This document shows, in pieces, positions 4,989 through 36,040 of a DNA stretch of 36,692 nucleotides. Position 1 is the first letter of the stretch. Every line of letters begins with the position of its first letter. Under the pieces are notes generated by a model. That model saw only the letters and a program-made list of their open reading frames with translations, was not told the DNA's origin and searched no databases. Source of the DNA: Bacteroidales bacterium (lineage in GTDB: Bacteria; Bacteroidota; Bacteroidia; Bacteroidales; P3); assembly GCA_031272705.1 (NCBI GenBank), contig JAISTG010000064.1:1-36692 (forward strand), given 5' to 3'. The position numbers and the translations under genes are program-made.

Positions 4989-5948
4989 ATGAAGAAAAAC
5001 ATAGCACTTATTGCGGGTGGAGACAGCGGAGAGTATGAAATATCCGTACTTTCCGCTAAAAACGTTATGACAGACCTTGATAAAGAGCGGTTTAACGTTT
5101 ATTTAATTATTGCAAAATACGGTAATTGGACATTTGAACAAAATAATACCGTATTCAACGTTGATAAAACCGATTTCAGCCTCAATATCAATGGACTGAA
5201 GGTACATTTTGATGCTGCTTTCATTATGATTCACGGCACTCCGGGCGAAAATGGCTTGTTGCAGGGCTATTTTGATATGCTTGGAATAAAATATACGGGC
5301 TGTTCTGCCTTGGTTTCGGCTCTCACTTTTGATAAATCATTCTGTAATGAGGTCGTTCGTAACTTCCACATTGTCAATGTAGCAAAGCATATTGCCATTA
5401 CCCGCAATTCTCCTCTTGATTTGGATAACATAATTGCCCAAACAGGCTTTCCGTCCTTCGTAAAACCATCGCAGGGCGGTTCTTCGCTTGCGACCTTTAA
5501 GGTTATGAACAAGGCGGAACTTGAAAAAGCCATTGCCGAAGCCTTTAAGGTTGATAATAAAGTACTTGTTGAACAGTTTATTAAGGGCAGAGAATTAACC
5601 TGTGGTGTATTTAACGAAGAGGCTTTTCCCGTTACGGAAATCGTAACCGAAAGAGAATTTTTTGATTACGAAGCAAAATATCTGGGAATGTCAAAAGAAA
5701 TAACACCCGCTCAAATTTCCGACAACTTGAAAACACAAATACAAACCGCAGCACTTCAAATCTATCAACGGCTTGGATGTAAGGGCGTATGCAGGGTTGA
5801 TTTTATTTATGACGAAACGTCAAATGAAATCTATTTTCTTGAGATAAACACAGTTCCTGGTCAAAGTCCGCAAAGCATAGTGCCTCAACAGGTAAGGGCT
5901 ATGGGCAAAACAACAGCGTGGCTTTACAATTCGCTGCTTGAGATTTAG
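4989..5948 (+). CDS. ddl: D-alanine--D-alanine ligase
   Basis: 319 residues, typical length. It joins two D-alanines with ATP for peptidoglycan synthesis. The ATP-grasp architecture is visible: N-terminal GGDSGEYEISVLSA loop, MIHGTPGENGLLQGYFDMLGIKYTG, the ATP-binding lobe (FPSFVKPSQGGSSLATFKV, VLVEQFIKGRELTCGVF) and the C-terminal metal and dipeptide site (FLEINTVPGQSPQSIVPQQ). The N-x-x-PG...S motif is intact. It lies 14 nt after rho, with no promoter of its own visible. Confidence 0.97.
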   Translation: MKKNIALIAGGDSGEYEISVLSAKNVMTDLDKERFNVYLIIAKYGNWTFEQNNTVFNVDKTDFSLNINGLKVHFDAAFIMIHGTPGENGLLQGYFDMLGIKYTGCSALVSALTFDKSFCNEVVRNFHIVNVAKHIAITRNSPLDLDNIIAQTGFPSFVKPSQGGSSLATFKVMNKAELEKAIAEAFKVDNKVLVEQFIKGRELTCGVFNEEAFPVTEIVTEREFFDYEAKYLGMSKEITPAQISDNLKTQIQTAALQIYQRLGCKGVCRVDFIYDETSNEIYFLEINTVPGQSPQSIVPQQVRAMGKTTAWLYNSLLEI

Positions 5949-5984: not shown

Positions 5985-6089
5985 AATCAAATTATAAAAT
6001 TCTATAATCAAATTATAGAACGTTAGAATTTGATTTTAGAATTCTATAATTTGATTCTAATAAACTATAATTTGATTTCAGAAAATTCA
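5985..6089. repeat. AT-rich 21-bp palindromic repeat array B (5 units)
   Basis: Units begin at 5985, 6006, 6027, 6048 and 6069, exactly 21 bp apart, with spacers AATCAAATT (twice) then AATTTGATT (three times). The 12-mers include ATAAAATTCTAT, ATAGAACGTTAG and TTAGAATTCTAT. The array sits between ddl and the small ORF at 6212. Frames are closed on both strands, so it is non-coding. Confidence 0.85.
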
Positions 6090-6211
6090 AAGCCTATTTC
6101 CGCAAGGCGAATTTGTGTTCTGTCAAATTATTTTTTCTTTGTCATCATACAATATAAATTTATAATTTACGTTTTTCTTACATAACAATCGTATAATTAA
6201 AATCAAATTAA

Positions 6212-6406
6212 ATGGATAAAGATTACATTTTAAGACAATTAGATAAGTGGGAAACGGATTTGGCTGATGCTTACAGCAAAGAGCCGCAAGATTCGGTTAG
6301 ATTCCCAATTAGTCGCAAAATTATCAATAAGTTGATAGCATATTCCAGAATCTCGGAATACTGTCAAACGATTTCCGATGTTCATAAAACCATTCCATTC
6401 AATTAA
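6212..6406 (+). CDS. Small hypothetical protein overlapping the DAHP synthase start
   Basis: 64 residues, ATG start. The protein is helical and charged (DYILRQLDKWETDLADAYSKE) with no membrane segment or metal motif, and I do not recognise it. Its last 29 nt overlap the start of the DAHP synthase gene in another reading frame, a geometry consistent with translational coupling. No Shine-Dalgarno or TAnnTTTG box is obvious just upstream. The amino-acid composition looks protein-like, but a chance ORF in the leader of aroA cannot be excluded. Confidence 0.5.
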   Translation: MDKDYILRQLDKWETDLADAYSKEPQDSVRFPISRKIINKLIAYSRISEYCQTISDVHKTIPFN

Positions 6407-7472
6407 AAGGGAAAAACCGCTCGTTATAGCAGGACCTTGCAGTGCGGAAAGTTATGAACAGGTATTGCAAACGGCTGAATCTATTGCCGTTAGCAGTCCT
6501 TCCGTTCATTGGTTCAGGGCTGGTGTATGGAAATCCCGCACAAGACCTTCGCAATTTGAAGGAATAGGCAGCGAAGCCTTGAAATGGCTTTCGCAGATTA
6601 AGGCTCTAACGGGATTAAAAGTTTGTACCGAAGTAATTAAACCTGAACATATTGAGTTATGTCTTAAACATGGCATTGACGGACTTTGGATTGGGGCAAG
6701 AACTTCAACAAATCCTTTTATGATTGAGGAACTTGCCAAATGTTTGCAGCATTTGAAGGTAACAAAACTTCCACTCTTCGTAAAGAATCCTCTTAATCCT
6801 GACGTAAATCTGTGGATTGGGGCTATGGAACGTTTTTATAATGTTGGATGTGAAGATATTACTGCCGTACATCGCGGTTTTTCGTTAGTGGATAACGGGA
6901 AGTATAGACAGAAACCTCTTTGGCAAGTGCCGATAGAGTTAAAGCGTTTATTGCCTGATGTTTCCGTGTTGTGTGATCCGAGTCATATTGCAGGGGAACG
7001 ACAATATGTTTATGAGATTTCGCAAATGGCTATGGATTTAAGCCTTGATGGTTTAATGATAGAAGTGCATCATAATCCCGAAGCGGCAAAAACGGATAGC
7101 AATCAGCAGATTACGCCGGATGAATTAAAGTCCCTGCTTGAGCATCTAAACATACCGAACAGTGAAAACAGGTCGCTTTCCGACATAACGGCAATTCGGG
7201 AACGTATAGATTTTATTGATGACGATATAATGGACTTTCTGCAAAAGCGAATGGCTCAAAGTGAGGCTCTTGCACGGATAAAACATCAGGAAAATATGAG
7301 TCTGTTTCAGCCTGACAGGTGGCAGGAAGTGTTAAATGACCGACTGTTGAAGGCTAAACAAAAAGGGTTGTCACAGAATTTCATAAAGATAATTTTTGAG
7401 CAGATTCACGAGGAATCAATTAAGGTTCAAAGTTATGCAATTAAAAAAAACTCACTCCAAAAAGAGAATTGA
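6378..7472 (+). CDS. Bifunctional 3-deoxy-7-phosphoheptulonate (DAHP) synthase / chorismate mutase
   Basis: 364 residues in two domains. Residues about 10-245 are a type I-beta DAHP synthase barrel (PLVIAGPCSAES, HWFRAGVWKSRTRPSQFEG, NPDVNLWIGAMER, CDPSHIAGER), which condenses PEP and erythrose 4-phosphate. Residues about 270-350 are a type II (AroQ) chorismate mutase helix bundle (ITAIRERIDFIDDDIMDFLQ ... RMAQSEALARIK). The fusion feeds phenylalanine/tyrosine synthesis and lets prephenate-branch signals control pathway entry; this fusion is common in Bacteroidota. The start matches the family, where only a short stretch precedes the IAGPCS motif. It overlaps the small ORF at 6212. Confidence 0.95.
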   Translation: MFIKPFHSIKREKPLVIAGPCSAESYEQVLQTAESIAVSSPSVHWFRAGVWKSRTRPSQFEGIGSEALKWLSQIKALTGLKVCTEVIKPEHIELCLKHGIDGLWIGARTSTNPFMIEELAKCLQHLKVTKLPLFVKNPLNPDVNLWIGAMERFYNVGCEDITAVHRGFSLVDNGKYRQKPLWQVPIELKRLLPDVSVLCDPSHIAGERQYVYEISQMAMDLSLDGLMIEVHHNPEAAKTDSNQQITPDELKSLLEHLNIPNSENRSLSDITAIRERIDFIDDDIMDFLQKRMAQSEALARIKHQENMSLFQPDRWQEVLNDRLLKAKQKGLSQNFIKIIFEQIHEESIKVQSYAIKKNSLQKEN

Positions 7473-8252: not shown

Positions 8253-8453
8253 TCAGACTATATTTCTAAATTTACTAATTTGTATATTTTTATTTAATGT
8301 TAAACGTGTTTTTCTATTATGCGTACATGTACGCACACTCTCCGTACATGTACGCATACCGTCTGTACATGTACGCATACCTTCCGTACATGTACGCATG
8401 CTCTCCGTACATGTACATTTGATTTCTGATATTGTTATTACAAATCTATTCAT
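8253..8453 (-). CDS. Heptad-repeat leader ORF beginning MNRFVITISE (copy 1)
   Basis: 66 codons, ATG at 8453, too close to its promoter for a normal leader (8 nt between the -7 box and ATG). After MNRFVITISE come heptads with Thr at residues 14, 21, 28, 35, 42 and 49, reading TCTE(S/G)(M/V)R, then a basic tail. The repeats are the 21-bp array at 8323-8416 read in frame. A second ORF at 12372-12205 shares the N-terminus and heptad phase and differs within the shared ten codons only at silent third positions, which is evidence for translation. It lies just upstream of the barrel gene at 8197. It resembles no protein I know; it may act as a leader peptide rather than as a stable protein. Confidence 0.55.
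   Translation of the reverse strand: MNRFVITISEIKCTCTESMRTCTEGMRTCTDGMRTCTESVRTCTHNRKTRLTLNKNIQISKFRNIV
8323..8416. repeat. 21-bp tandem array with 12-bp palindrome CGTACATGTACG (5 units)
   Basis: GTACATGTAC starts at 8323, 8344, 8365, 8386 and 8407, exactly 21 bp apart. The 9-bp spacers (CACACTCTC, CATACCGTC, CATACCTTC, CATGCTCTC) vary. On the minus strand they read GAGAGTGTG, GACGGTATG, GAAGGTATG and GAGAGCATG, which resemble the spacers of the array at 31.6 kb. Confidence 0.92.
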
Positions 8454-12204: not shown

Positions 12205-12372
12205 TTATTTTATTTTTAGATTACCTGTTTCTAAACACTCTGCACCGGTTGCTAAATCACGGACACCGGTTGCCAAGTTACGGACACCGGTGCTTTTGAT
12301 TGCTGTACTTGTGCAACAGGTTTCTGCACCTGTATTTTGAGTTTCTGATATTGTGATTACAAATCTGTTCAT
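12205..12372 (-). CDS. Heptad-repeat leader ORF beginning MNRFVITISE (copy 2)
   Basis: 55 codons from the ATG at 12372, ending 7 nt before the glycosyltransferase start. MNRFVITISE is followed by heptads with Thr at residues 14, 21, 28, 35, 42 and 49 (TGVRNLA, TGVRDLA, TGAECLE), the same phase as the copy at 8453-8253 but with different heptad sequence. The -7 box is again 8 nt before the ATG. The close spacing to the downstream gene suggests an upstream ORF that couples or attenuates its translation. It is too short and too repetitive to recognise; a non-coding leader remains the alternative. Confidence 0.55.
   Translation of the reverse strand: MNRFVITISETQNTGAETCCTSTAIKSTGVRNLATGVRDLATGAECLETGNLKIK
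12223..12333. repeat. 21-bp array with ACCGGT core (6 phased sites)
   Basis: ACCTGT, ACCGGT, ACCGGT, ACCGGT, ACTTGT and ACCTGT start at 12223, 12244, 12265, 12286, 12307 and 12328, exactly 21 bp apart. The middle three carry the intact palindrome (CACCGGTG at 12285-12292) and the outer ones are decayed. It is wholly inside the leader ORF, with the palindrome centre on a codon boundary. Confidence 0.85.
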
Positions 12373-15937: not shown

Positions 15938-15958
15938 AATTTGATTATAGGAATGCAA
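15938..15958. repeat. Solitary 21-bp unit of the AT-rich palindromic repeat family
   Basis: AATTTGATT + ATAGGAATGCAA forms a single unit between the divergent hutI and OmpA-like genes. It may be a seed or remnant of the arrays found elsewhere. Confidence 0.45.
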
Positions 15959-18750: not shown

Positions 18751-18896
18751 AATTTGATTCCGGATTACTGTAATTTGATTATAGAAAATTAGAATCAAAT
18801 TACAGCGTTCCGGAATCAAATTATAGAATTCTATAATCAAGTTCTAGCGTTCTGTAATTTGATTCTAATTTTCTATAATCAAATTACAGAAGTTAC
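18751..18896. repeat. AT-rich 21-bp palindromic repeat array C (7 units)
   Basis: Units begin at 18751, 18772, 18793, 18814, 18835, 18856 and 18877. Spacers are AATTTGATT or AATCAAATT (one AATCAAGTT); 12-mers include the perfect palindrome ATAGAATTCTAT and ACAGCGTTCCGG. Five consecutive units match array D almost base for base. It fills part of the 390-nt gap between WbqC and hepT. Confidence 0.9.
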
Positions 18897-21572: not shown

Positions 21573-21690
21573 AATTTGATTATAGAAAATTAGAATCAAA
21601 TTACAGCGTTCCGGAATCAAATTATAAAATTCTATAATCAAGTTCTAGCGTTCTGTAATTTGATTCTAATTTTACGGAAGCAAGTTTTAG
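21573..21690. repeat. AT-rich 21-bp palindromic repeat array D (5 units plus decayed sixth)
   Basis: Units begin at 21573, 21594, 21615, 21636 and 21657, with a diverged AAGCAAGTT unit at 21678. Order and sequence of the 12-mers (ATAGAAAATTAG, ACAGCGTTCCGG, ATAAAATTCTAT, CTAGCGTTCTGT) repeat those of array C with very few changes, which indicates a recent copy. It lies upstream of the subtilisin promoter. Confidence 0.9.
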
Positions 21691-24836: not shown

Positions 24837-24983
24837 AATCAAATTACAGAACGCTATAACTTGATTATAGATTTTTGAAACTTGATTATAATTTACTGGA
24901 ATTTGATTATAGAATTCTATAATTTGATTTCAGAACGCTGTAATTTGATTCTAATTTTCTATAATCAAATTCTAATAAAACAA
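24837..24983. repeat. AT-rich 21-bp palindromic repeat array E (7 units)
   Basis: Units begin at 24837, 24858, 24879, 24900, 24921, 24942 and 24963 with no slippage. Spacers include AACTTGATT variants; 12-mers include ATAGAATTCTAT (perfect palindrome), TCAGAACGCTGT and CTAATTTTCTAT. It lies between the VanZ gene and the ketosynthase-like gene, ending about 70 nt before the latter's promoter box. Confidence 0.9.
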
Positions 24984-31486: not shown

Positions 31487-31879
31487 ATGATTATCAAACC
31501 ATTAAAGAGTGTTCCGAAAGGATTTTGGGTCGTACGGAAAACCGTAAAAAACGTTACAACGACTTTCTGTAACGTTACGGAAAGTTATTGTAATGTTACA
31601 GAGAGTTATTGTAACGTTACAGAGAGTTGTTGTAATGTTACAGAGAGTTATTGTAACGTTACAGAAGGTTGTTGTAACGTTACAGAAGGTTATTGTAACG
31701 TTACAGAGAGTTGTTGTAACGTTACAGAAAGTTATTGTAACGTTACAGAAAGTTATTGTAACGTTACAGAGAGTTATTGTAACGTTACAGAAAGTTGTTG
31801 TAACGTTACAGAAACGATAAAAACCGGAATTTTTAGATTTTATAATATAATATATACTAATAATTATTATTCCTCATAG
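31487..31879 (+). CDS. Heptad-repeat ORF, (C)NVTE(S/G)(Y/C) repeats
   Basis: 130 codons from ATG 31487. About 20 basic/hydrophobic residues (MIIKPLKSVPKGFWVVRK) precede some 13 heptads, mostly CNVTESY or CNVTESC, then a tail TIKTGIFRFYNIIYTNNYYSS. The repeats are the 21-bp array at 31568-31819 read in one frame; a second forward frame is also open across the array, as is common in such DNA. The heptad TE(S/G) echoes TCTE(S/G) in the leader ORF at 8253-8453. There is no signal peptide, no clear promoter and no Shine-Dalgarno. Either a small repeat protein or a non-coding array with an open frame by virtue of its period. Confidence 0.35.
   Translation: MIIKPLKSVPKGFWVVRKTVKNVTTTFCNVTESYCNVTESYCNVTESCCNVTESYCNVTEGCCNVTEGYCNVTESCCNVTESYCNVTESYCNVTESYCNVTESCCNVTETIKTGIFRFYNIIYTNNYYSS
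31568..31819. repeat. 21-bp tandem array with perfect palindrome TGTAACGTTACA (12 units)
   Basis: Twelve units start every 21 bp from 31568 to 31799, with a degenerate unit before (AACGTTACA near 31552). Palindromes are almost invariant (TGTAACGTTACA; TGTAATGTTACA twice), while 9-bp spacers vary between GAGAGTTAT, GAAAGTTAT, GAGAGTTGT and GAAGGTTGT. It lies downstream of btuG between convergent transcription units. Confidence 0.95.
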
Positions 31880-33056: not shown

Positions 33057-35048
33057 TTAATTGAATTTATAATTTATTTTTATCCTAAATTGACGCAAGG
33101 GCATAGGATAATTTTTTACTATTTCATACTGATAATTCAGTAGATTAAGAACCGACAGCGACAAAACAAAATTCTTCCCAAACTTTTTCTGCAAACCGAC
33201 ACTGTGTTCGCAGTAAGCATCAAGACGATTTGCCGCAATGTTTTCGTTTAAGGCGTATCGCTTGCCCATAAACGAAAGAGTATATGAAGCCGACCACGAT
33301 TTGAAATCAACTATTGCAAGTATTGAGCCGCTGTTTCGTGGAGTGTAAGGTATTTGCTGTTGATAAGTGAGGCTTGTTTCTTCATTATCTACGGCGTATT
33401 GAAAGGAATAAGTCCCTTGAAGGTGCAGATTTACGCTGCGAATGTTAGTTCTGATGCTCGCTAACAGGTCTATACCGCTCACCTGTACCTTTCCGTAATT
33501 GAGCATTGACCATACAAAAAGATTCCTTTGAGGCATTGCCACTATTTTATCAAGAACCTGATTGTAATAAGCGTCAAATGAGGTGTTTAATTGCAAGAAA
33601 CGCTTTGTTGAAAAGTTTTTGCGATAAGCCCAATGGAAATTAAACTGCTTTGTTCTTTCGGGTTTTAAGTTTGGAGTGCCGATGCGGTTATAGTAAAGTT
33701 CGTTAAAGGTCGGGTAACGCTCAATATCCTTATAGAAGATACTGAATGCGAAGTCCTTAAACCTGTATCCGAGAGACAGAAACGGGTGAATACCGTACTT
33801 TTTGCTCTCCATATATTCGTATGATGTGTTATCGTGATAACAGGTGTGCAGAATATTGGCATTGAAAGTAAAACTGTACAGGTCAAAAGCAAAAATGGCT
33901 GCCGTCAAAGAGGAAAAACGCTTGGGTGAAACGGCTACATTGGCGGTTGCATCAAGAGTATTGTAAGTCAAATCGTTGGTTAATGAAATTCCAAGTTGTT
34001 TTGATTGGTACGAAAATACGTTATTGACATATCCTTCCTTTTGTTGATAAATATCACTCTGGAATCCGTTGGCGTTAAGCACCTGTCCATCAAAATAATG
34101 CGTAGAAACAACGGATACCTTGCTATAATTGCGATAGGTGAAATGCTCATTAAAGTTATGTGTAAGGACACTTTGAGCAAAGGCATTCCTGTCCCAAAGT
34201 CGCTGATGGCTGTTTAAGTAATAGTAAATGGTCGCAGAGGGCAAGCCACGATTGCTGTAAAAGTAATAAAACTTTAATTTTAAGTCCGTTTGTGAAGAAA
34301 AAGTGATGTAATTATTCCATTCCGTTCGCAGGGAAAGCAGGTCTGCATTTGTGCGTCTTTCTTTGGAGGTACTGTCTCCCTCATTCCGTCCGTAGCGAAG
34401 CAGATACGGATAGTTGCCTGCCGAATTTATAAAATCAAAATCAAGAGTAGTTATCCATTTTTCAGTCATTTTCAGCGCCAAAGCGAAACCGGGATTAAAG
34501 TAATTGAACGAACCATAAGAACAGAAGGCATTTACCTTTGCTCTTTCCCGCATTTCAAACTTCGGCTTAATCGTTTCAATCATAAATATATTTGAAGAAG
34601 AAAGTGCTTTTGCAGGTTGTAACAGATTGAAATCCGCTCCGTTACTCATATTTACTTCTTTTATGTTGGCGGTAGAGTATTTGCTTAAATCAATTTGCCC
34701 GTTCATATAATCCGAAACGGAAATTCCGTCATACATAACTGCCGTATGGCTGGTGCCTAATCCCCTTACACTTATGGTTTTCAAGCCTCCCAGCCCGCCA
34801 TAATCCTTAACGGTTACGCCGGGAATAAATTTTGCAATTTCGCCTGCCGATGTTACCGACTGCTTTTCAATAAGCGTTCTGTCAATATGCACATTGCTCT
34901 GTTCCAATGGACGTTGGCTCATGGCGGAATCAACAATGGTTATGGTTGGCAGTTGATATTGGCGTATCGTGTCCTCATTTTGAGAGAACGAACCAAAGGG
35001 TAAATAACCCAGAATCAGCATTATGAATATTCTTTTACAACAAATCAT
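33057..35048 (-). CDS. btuB: TonB-dependent vitamin B12 receptor, BtuB-like
   Basis: 663 residues. Signal peptide ends near GSFSQ. A plug domain (about residues 30-160: AGEIAKFIPGVTVKDYGGLGGLKTISVRGLGTSHTAVMYDGISV) is followed by a 22-strand-type barrel (for example NELYYNRIGTPNLKPERTKQFNFHW, a TonB-receptor signature) to the C-terminal strand FRIKINYKFN. No extra carboxypeptidase-like N-terminal domain is seen, unlike SusC. It carries cobalamin across the outer membrane using TonB energy. Its leader holds a cobalamin riboswitch and btuG follows, so substrate assignment is strong. The ATG at 35048 begins 44 nt after the riboswitch. Confidence 0.94.
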   Translation of the reverse strand: MICCKRIFIMLILGYLPFGSFSQNEDTIRQYQLPTITIVDSAMSQRPLEQSNVHIDRTLIEKQSVTSAGEIAKFIPGVTVKDYGGLGGLKTISVRGLGTSHTAVMYDGISVSDYMNGQIDLSKYSTANIKEVNMSNGADFNLLQPAKALSSSNIFMIETIKPKFEMRERAKVNAFCSYGSFNYFNPGFALALKMTEKWITTLDFDFINSAGNYPYLLRYGRNEGDSTSKERRTNADLLSLRTEWNNYITFSSQTDLKLKFYYFYSNRGLPSATIYYYLNSHQRLWDRNAFAQSVLTHNFNEHFTYRNYSKVSVVSTHYFDGQVLNANGFQSDIYQQKEGYVNNVFSYQSKQLGISLTNDLTYNTLDATANVAVSPKRFSSLTAAIFAFDLYSFTFNANILHTCYHDNTSYEYMESKKYGIHPFLSLGYRFKDFAFSIFYKDIERYPTFNELYYNRIGTPNLKPERTKQFNFHWAYRKNFSTKRFLQLNTSFDAYYNQVLDKIVAMPQRNLFVWSMLNYGKVQVSGIDLLASIRTNIRSVNLHLQGTYSFQYAVDNEETSLTYQQQIPYTPRNSGSILAIVDFKSWSASYTLSFMGKRYALNENIAANRLDAYCEHSVGLQKKFGKNFVLSLSVLNLLNYQYEIVKNYPMPLRQFRIKINYKFN

Positions 35049-35091
35049 AAAACAACTTTATCCTCGAAAGTTTTTAAACTTTATAATTTTT

Positions 35092-35250
35092 GGCAGGTTT
35101 TCTGACTTGTTCCCAATCAAGTTGCCTTCCCATTTTTCACAGTGGCAAAAGATTTACCCGATTGTTTTTTTGGAACTTACAGCAGCGGGACTGTACAGGA
35201 TTCTCACCTGATTCCCTTTTGCATCTTCGCCCGTAGGACTACAGGAAAAG
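35092..35250 (-). promoter_or_regulatory. Cobalamin riboswitch controlling btuB-btuG
   Basis: Read on the minus strand, the leader contains the conserved GGGAATCAGGTGAGAATCC and TACAGTCCCGCTGCTGTAAG cores, the B12-box GCCACTG, and a closing AGTCAGAAAACCTGCC, in the order expected for AdoCbl riboswitches. It begins close to the transcription start and ends about 44 nt before the btuB ATG, which fits control of expression by cobalamin. No intrinsic terminator follows, so translational control is likelier. Confidence 0.95.
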
Positions 35251-35265
35251 AACCAAAAACGGCGG

Positions 35266-35295
35266 CAAAAGTACAAAAAAAATCAATACGTGCAA
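35266..35295 (-). promoter_or_regulatory. Promoter (-33 TTG / -7 TACTTTTG) of B12 uptake operon
   Basis: TACTTTTG from 35273 to 35266 and TTG 35295-35293, spacer 19 nt; transcription should start near 35261, just before the riboswitch. Confidence 0.75.
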
Positions 35296-35944: not shown

Positions 35945-36040
35945 AATTAGATTACATTCAATTAAAATCAAAGAATATTCATTCAAAATCAAGTTTTAGA
36001 CAATTATAATTTGATTTTGAACATTTGTAATCAAGTTTCA
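35945..36040. repeat. AT-rich 21-bp palindromic repeat array F (5 units, diverged)
   Basis: Units begin at 35945, 35966, 35987, 36008 and 36029 with spacers AATTAGATT, AATCAAAGA, AATCAAGTT, AATTTGATT and AATCAAGTT. The 12-mers have lost most dyad symmetry (ACATTCAATTAA, ATATTCATTCAA), but the 21-bp phase is kept. It lies between the divergent acetyltransferase and carbamoyltransferase genes. Confidence 0.75.

Follow-up and report, generated by a model that had tools for sequence, protein, structure and literature searches.

A Bacteroidales genome of 2,151,250 bp (125 contigs) carries, between its genes, arrays of 21-bp units that together make up a minisatellite, dispersed and species-specific, whose two-turn lattice is fixed; these arrays gain and lose whole units. 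The best explanation, with a probability of about 0.45, is that the period of this minisatellite is kept by a putative helix-reading protein. The window, i.e., the whole stretch of 36,692 nucleotides analyzed here (contig JAISTG010000064.1), contains arrays of one sequence family, denoted A, along with a lone copy of their 9-mer and 21-bp arrays of unrelated sequence (no strand is assigned to any of these features):

1919–2002, no strand: A-family array of 4 units, between convergent ORFs
5985–6077, no strand: A-family array of 5 units, in the gap between the genes for D-Ala-D-Ala ligase (4989–5948) and DAHP synthase/chorismate mutase (6378–7472)
8322–8416, no strand: unrelated 21-bp array, unit CGTACATGTACGCATACCCTC, 4.5 copies, within a 103-aa GTG ORF of doubtful reality
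12243–12291, no strand: unrelated 21-bp array, unit CACCGGTTGCCAAATCACGGA, 2.3 copies
15938–15946, no strand: single isolated 9-mer, unsupported as an array
18751–18885, no strand: A-family array of 7 units, 9-mer AATCAAATT/AATTTGATT plus a 12-mer; the array of the initial annotation
21573–21665, no strand: A-family array of 5 units, with a decayed one at 21678
24837–24971, no strand: A-family array of 7 units
31568–31814, no strand: unrelated 21-bp array, unit TGTAACGTTACAGAAAGTTAT, 11.8 copies, 0 indels
35945–36037, no strand: decayed A-family array with 5 in-phase units

The initial annotation placed arrays at seven positions, six of which indeed display the exact 21-bp phase, whereas the seventh, at 15938, consists of an isolated 9-mer without any in-phase partner; lone exact 9-mers are also present in the window at 6201 and 20389. 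The arrays at 18751 and 21573 have a 54-bp block in common. The arrays at 8322, 12243 and 31568, which were identified in the window by TRF, were missing from that list. The array at 31568 is readable by eye as an open frame of seven-residue repeats starting with an ATG at 31487 (31487–31879, plus strand); given that 21 is a multiple of 3, this frame may be accidental. An Rfam scan finds no match for the arrays and detects only a cobalamin riboswitch (RF00174, 92.3 bits, 35075–35272, minus strand) and a tRNA gene (RF00005, 26861–26936, plus strand). The riboswitch is located directly upstream of the gene for a TonB-dependent receptor with a Plug domain (33057–35048, minus strand), which for this reason is probably a vitamin B12 receptor.

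Abundance and genomic placement of the arrays

A genome-wide search with the pattern AATYWRATT-N12-AATYWRATT, allowing at most one mismatch, yields 858 forward matches in 2.15 Mb and none for the reversed control pattern, so that the abundance of the phased units is beyond chance. Within a sample of 349,510 bp, which consists of the window, 10 stretches with pattern matches and 10 stretches selected by contig number, there are 369 pairs of exact 9-mers located within 150 bp of each other, and 363 of these are separated by multiples of 21. The claim that the arrays are intergenic is borne out as well: all 31 phased 9-mers of the window lie outside ORFs, and so do 216 of the 224 in the sample (8 are inside), where ORFs cover 86% of the sequence. 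The 10 stretches taken by contig number contain 18 arrays in 152,062 bp, which by extrapolation would correspond to roughly 250 arrays in the genome.

Comparison of gaps with and without arrays reveals no preference for a transcription context: gaps that contain arrays include 20 co-directional, 8 convergent and 8 divergent ones, compared to 75, 23 and 27, respectively, among the array-free gaps. The median distances of the arrays to the 3' and 5' ends of genes, 63.5 and 115.5 bp, are close to those for random placement, 73 and 103 bp. With neither a context nor a distance preference, a role as promoters or terminators was rejected. The length of array-containing gaps minus the array is 187.5 bp, against 184 bp for array-free gaps; hence the arrays look like added DNA in this genome. 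The sister species G001, which carries a different lattice (see below), differs in this respect, with array gaps that are longer even after subtraction of the array (233 vs 144 bp).

Anatomy of the unit

Altogether, 46 arrays were collected, mostly with 3–7 units; one of the arrays (L028:14073) is weak and may be false. The 21-bp unit consists of a 9-mer, AAT-CAA-ATT or its reverse complement, and a 12-mer with three flank bases on each side of a six-base core. The 9-mer is strictly asymmetric, with CAA or TTG at the center, and occurs in both orientations, the order of which along the arrays is near-random (FF 71, RR 54, RF 50, FR 42). The most common cores of the 12-mer are GCGTTC (24 cases), GAACGC (24) and GAATTC (21), but as many as 147 different 12-mers are found among 207; thus, the palindromic character attributed to the 12-mer holds only for the consensus, with GAATTC at the core of 21 of the 207. 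There is a tendency for CG-containing and AT core types to alternate (111 changes vs 70 repeats). There are two dyad centers per unit, 10.5 bp apart, so that the originally suggested spacing of one dyad every 21 bp has to be corrected. Among 161 internal units, no Watson-Crick covariation is detectable around either dyad center, and both centers pair below expectation (core, 0.22 vs 0.41 expected; 9-mer, 0.01 vs 0.49 expected).

The 86 array ends have no single terminal sequence in common, and the lattice phase fades gradually at the ends, without a sharp boundary, although the motifs TTTCCTGA and TCGGCGYAGCCA recur at some of them. These features bear on the possibility that the arrays are non-autonomous transposable elements (MITEs or BrickBuilt-like) that carry a 21-bp minisatellite and are spread by a transposase. 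The dispersed and intergenic location of the arrays, their appearance as added DNA, the recurrent end motifs and the BrickBuilt precedent (PMC4596501) are all compatible with such an origin. Nevertheless, a transposon is very unlikely: the 86 ends lack a single terminal inverted repeat, the phase does not stop at a boundary, and recent copies would be expected to be near-identical, which is hard to reconcile with the diversity of the 12-mers. No empty site was found.

Predicted structure and physical properties

For the 39 arrays analyzed, folding is far superior to that of mononucleotide shuffles (mean z −5.72), which appears to favor RNA or cruciform hairpins, i.e., transcript structures such as terminators or stabilizers with pairing arms, and a pair-preserving double change in one 15-bp inverted repeat (see below) can be cited in the same vein. 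The same arrays, however, fold no better than lattices in which the blocks were flipped at random (mean z −0.20), and array-level palindromy is seen in 0 of 37 arrays. Together with the lack of covariation, these controls led to the rejection of hairpin or cruciform selection, and the idea that pairing between arms is under selection did not survive them. Considering also that the arrays show no strand or context preference and no Rfam match, hairpins can be set aside as highly improbable.

The curvature predicted from wedge parameters is elevated in the A family (10.5 vs 5.9 degrees per turn; 25 of 43 arrays with z>1.64, falling to 8 of 43 under permutation of 3-bp blocks). It is not elevated in the G001 lattice (6.5 vs 6.0 degrees per turn, 1 of 34 arrays) or in the other 21-bp arrays (6.1 vs 7.0 degrees per turn, 1 of 26 arrays). 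Thus, intrinsic curvature was rejected as a common purpose, and given that it is raised in the A family only, the period is the sole physical property that the arrays have in common.

The period is independent of the sequence

Among the 65 intergenic arrays identified by TRF in this genome, 60 have a period of 21, 42, 22 or 44. The sample contains 35 arrays of period 21, 22, 42 or 44 outside the A family (TRF), several of them within ORFs; the majority have matches at just one or two of the sampled positions. When the A arrays are masked, all 24 gaps with a strong lag show it at 21 (12 gaps), 42 (5), 22 (3), 44 (3) or 63 (1). Arrays of the same period are therefore formed by many unrelated sequences within one genome. 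The possibility that these arrays took over their period from A lattices that had decayed was considered and rejected: the units of the 26 intergenic arrays outside the A family are no more similar to the A motif than shuffled units (0 of 26 at p≤0.05), so that the period of these 26 arrays is not simply derived from that motif. A second dispersed lattice in this genome combines the palindrome GAAACCTAGGTTTC with 8 bp:

L034:7235–7416, L035:16468–16757 and L036:15966–16163: 22-bp lattice, palindrome GAAACCTAGGTTTC plus 8 bp

Lattices in related genomes

The exact A pattern is present in 16 of 101 genomes, with 589 pairs in the genome of the window, 3, 4 and 0 in three congeners, and at most 15 elsewhere. 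A lag-21 peak is nonetheless found in the intergenic DNA of G001, G003, G006 and G023, and a weaker one in others (G004 was excluded from the further survey of arrays because its autocorrelation is meaningless, probably owing to runs of N). In the sister species G001, the lattice is AAA-core-TTT with a 5-bp core, followed by N10, which again makes exactly 21 bp, and 302 of 311 pairs of its 11-mers are at multiples of 21 (295,445 bp). The corresponding pattern (B, AAA-5-TTT plus N10) has 179 forward pairs in G001; elsewhere, among 61 genomes, the counts are 30 in G003, 18 in G028, 15 in G006, 8 in G013 and 6 in G007. The abundance of the two patterns is thus reciprocal, with 589 exact A pairs in the genome of the window vs 3 in G001, and 3 vs 179 B pairs.

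The cores of the G001 lattice (CAGCC/GGCTG, CAGCG/CGCTG and CGCCG/CGGCG) each occur in both orientations, and N10 consists of two five-base half-words, one on either side of the center, with a common lexicon for the two sides. Both dyad centers again pair below expectation (0.13 vs 0.48 for the asymmetric core), and there is no covariation. The two lattices accordingly share a design, with conserved arms, an asymmetric odd core in both orientations (AAT-CAA/TTG-ATT here, AAA-CAGCC/GGCTG-TTT in G001) and a variable block of recurring half-words. The initial proposal that helical phasing is the invariant is thereby strengthened, given that the two-turn period recurs both in unrelated sequences of one genome and in the different lattice of G001.

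Within the family, period-21 arrays were detected in genera g1, g4, g5 and g11, with g2, g3, g7 and g12 counted as lattice-free; a single stretch was also taken from each of 20 other families of the order, and no such array turned up in any of these 20. Among named records, the closest is the Bacteroidales MAG Hs463_bin99; such MAGs are presumably of termite-gut origin. Among 80 named Bacteroidota loci (1.42 Mb), 11 of the 77 intergenic arrays have a period of 22 bp, mostly in Prevotella, and arrays of 14, 7 and 16 bp occur as well. The 22-bp intergenic arrays of Prevotella and Hoylesella (L129, L133, L153, L159 and L167, with 44 bp in L167) include several in which dyad arms flank an odd core, e.g., AAAAGGCAACCTTTTGCAGCCT. 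Within the same family but in another genus, L078 (G005, genus g3) and L228 (G026) have a period of 16 or 7/14 bp. The periods of 22 bp in some species, and of 16 or 7/14 bp in g3, run counter to a fixed value of 21, as if every lineage had a period of its own.

Evolution of the arrays

The mode of change can be traced in the close pair G036/G017, for which 11 orthologous array loci were compared, mostly with 91–97% identity and 86% at one locus (L272 of G017 was left out, with only a 235-bp flanking match in G036). Because pattern matches served to select these loci, they are uninformative about how well the 9-mer itself is conserved. Four of the 11 differ by whole 21-bp units. The difference amounts to 21 bp at L257/L266; at L263/L277, to 9+12 bp on one side with a further 21 bp on the opposite one; in the second array of L260/L269, to gaps that sum to 21; and at L275/L286, to a 21-bp gap beyond which the alignment is poor. 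At the other seven loci, indels within the arrays never exceed 2 bp. An array that differs by exactly one unit is also found between the genome of the window (G000) and G002. Thus, whole units of 21 bp are what the arrays gain or lose. The first array of L260/L269 contains, in G017, a unit that is now identical to its neighbor, as expected of conversion, and in L262/L271, two symmetric changes preserve the 15-bp inverted repeat mentioned above. At the seven loci with usable counts, 539 of 573 array positions are identical between G036 and G017, compared to 1450 of 1544 in other intergenic DNA; with divergence about equal in the two, purifying selection on the whole array is not demonstrated.

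Exact blocks of at least 35 bp are shared by 20 pairs of arrays, vs 3.1 with shuffled units (maximum 8 in 20 shuffles), although class-preserving shuffles give 7.6, with a maximum of 19 in 40, close to the observed value; at least 50 bp are shared by 3 pairs, vs 0.15 (maximum 1) in shuffles. Matches of at least 25 bp between arrays are direct in 55 cases and inverted in 55, with a lattice register that is partly forced by the shared 9-mers. The shared multi-unit blocks and the one converted unit suggest that blocks are copied between units and loci, in register, in direct or inverted orientation. Exchange between species is suggested by the array L032:4268–4352 of the genome of the window, which is nearly identical to L055:182–285 of G002; the nearby DNA (L032:5413–5591) is 98.9% identical between the two genomes and the flanking gene only 76%, so that recent exchange between G000 and G002 is likely.

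These patterns of sharing are relevant to the possibility that the dyad centers are targets of a site-specific recombinase, with flipping and exchange between in-phase sites, asymmetric cores that provide direction, and shuffling that generates the mixed orientations and the half-word combinations. Such a scheme would account for the equal numbers of direct and inverted matches, for the single half-word lexicon on both sides of the center in G001, and for cores that are strictly asymmetric both ways (s3–s5 pair in 0.01 of the units here, and 0.13 vs 0.48 in G001). It is quite unlikely, however, given that sites 10–21 bp apart overlap and would be too close to synapse with each other, that no recombinase gene was linked to the arrays, and that the 11 orthologous loci of G036/G017, although they display loss of units as well as conversion, include no clear case of an inverted unit.

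The main rival to a docked protein is an enzyme that acts as the ruler. Under this explanation, the arrays are functionless (selfish or neutral) minisatellites, in which a replication, repair or recombination enzyme that measures two turns sets the 21–22 bp, unequal exchange and conversion hold the register, and no protein is bound. The divergence of the arrays at the rate of other intergenic DNA, the exact unit steps, the near-uniform placement in gaps without context bias and the added-DNA gap lengths of this genome (187.5 vs 184 bp) are all as expected for such elements, which gives this explanation a considerable, even if minority, chance of being correct. It leaves unexplained the shared grammar of two unrelated families in sister species and the avoidance of palindromic centers in both, and no known enzyme with a two-turn ruler can be named.

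Relationship to known repeats

The closest published relative appears to be BrickBuilt from Porphyromonas gingivalis, which is an intergenic 23-nt tandem repeat (PMC4596501) found at 19 loci of ATCC 33277, with unit numbers that differ between strains and 0–6% indels in the arrays; it is one sequence family inside a MITE, with a leader, a tail and IS5-type terminal repeats. The likeness lies in the Bacteroidales host, the intergenic and dispersed location and a unit of about two turns. Thus, the view that no described family is involved holds insofar as there is no REP/RAYT or Rfam match, but must be qualified by the similarity to BrickBuilt. The arrays appear to differ from BrickBuilt in having 21-bp units with few indels, two asymmetric cores both ways, hundreds of loci, and no common leader, tail or ends; moreover, their period reappears in unrelated sequences as well as in the different lattice of G001.

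The TAACTGA repeats (PMC4679880) are abundant intergenic 7-bp direct repeats, without dyads, that are found also in five Bacteroidetes; in the Beggiatoaceae genome, most of them are located no further than several nucleotides from a start codon. The lattice, in contrast, has a 21-bp unit and occurs in any gene context. With REP, BIME and REPIN elements (the subject of PMC3733652 and PMC3116915), the arrays share the short, dispersed, intergenic units that are palindromic by consensus, but they differ in the fixed 21-bp lattice, the avoidance of palindromic centers and the lack of conserved pairing. A search for RAYT genes (Y1_Tnp, PF01797) gave 0 matches in G000 and G001–G003, and a RAYT/REP element was rejected on this basis.

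With respect to CRISPR, the conserved part is only 9 bp long and the variable part reuses half-words. Plasmid iterons are helically phased direct repeats of about 21–22 bp that are bound by an initiator protein; unlike these, the arrays occupy hundreds of chromosomal loci in mixed orientation, and no rep gene was found among the 20 window proteins scanned. As in bacterial minisatellites (VNTRs), the tandem units, at 21 bp, are within the 10–100 bp range and vary in number between related genomes. In the open-licence literature of PubMed Central, searches retrieved no account of a 21-bp lattice like this one. The arrays can accordingly be placed among the bacterial minisatellites, possibly as a class of their own, a status that depends on the existence of the helix-reading protein.

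A possible mechanism and its implications

For the preferred explanation, a period kept by a bound protein, the following scheme can be proposed. The double helix would set the period. Most likely, an abundant dimeric DNA-binding protein, putatively a nucleoid or regulatory one, would dock once per two turns on one face, and once docked would favor or protect in-phase units. Its recognition sequence would drift between species, and the arrays would follow by concerted evolution. Row-wise binding of a protein, as initially suggested, is plausible. A still broader generalization appears rather doubtful, namely, that there exists a class of DNA set by geometry: intergenic two-turn lattices with dyads each turn and an asymmetric core, written in other letters in each species, which undergo concerted evolution against a co-evolving architectural protein that binds the arrays, much as satellite DNA co-evolves with its binding protein.

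The usual classification of intergenic repeats in bacteria is by sequence (REP, MITE, CRISPR), whereas here the spacing outlasts the letters: the sequence turns over between sister species and the spacing stays at 21 bp, as if the geometry were preserved. The arrays constitute an abundant natural set of minisatellites, the unit-by-unit evolution of which is traceable between close species, and make a helix-reading constraint, imposed either by a bound protein or by a duplication enzyme, amenable to testing.
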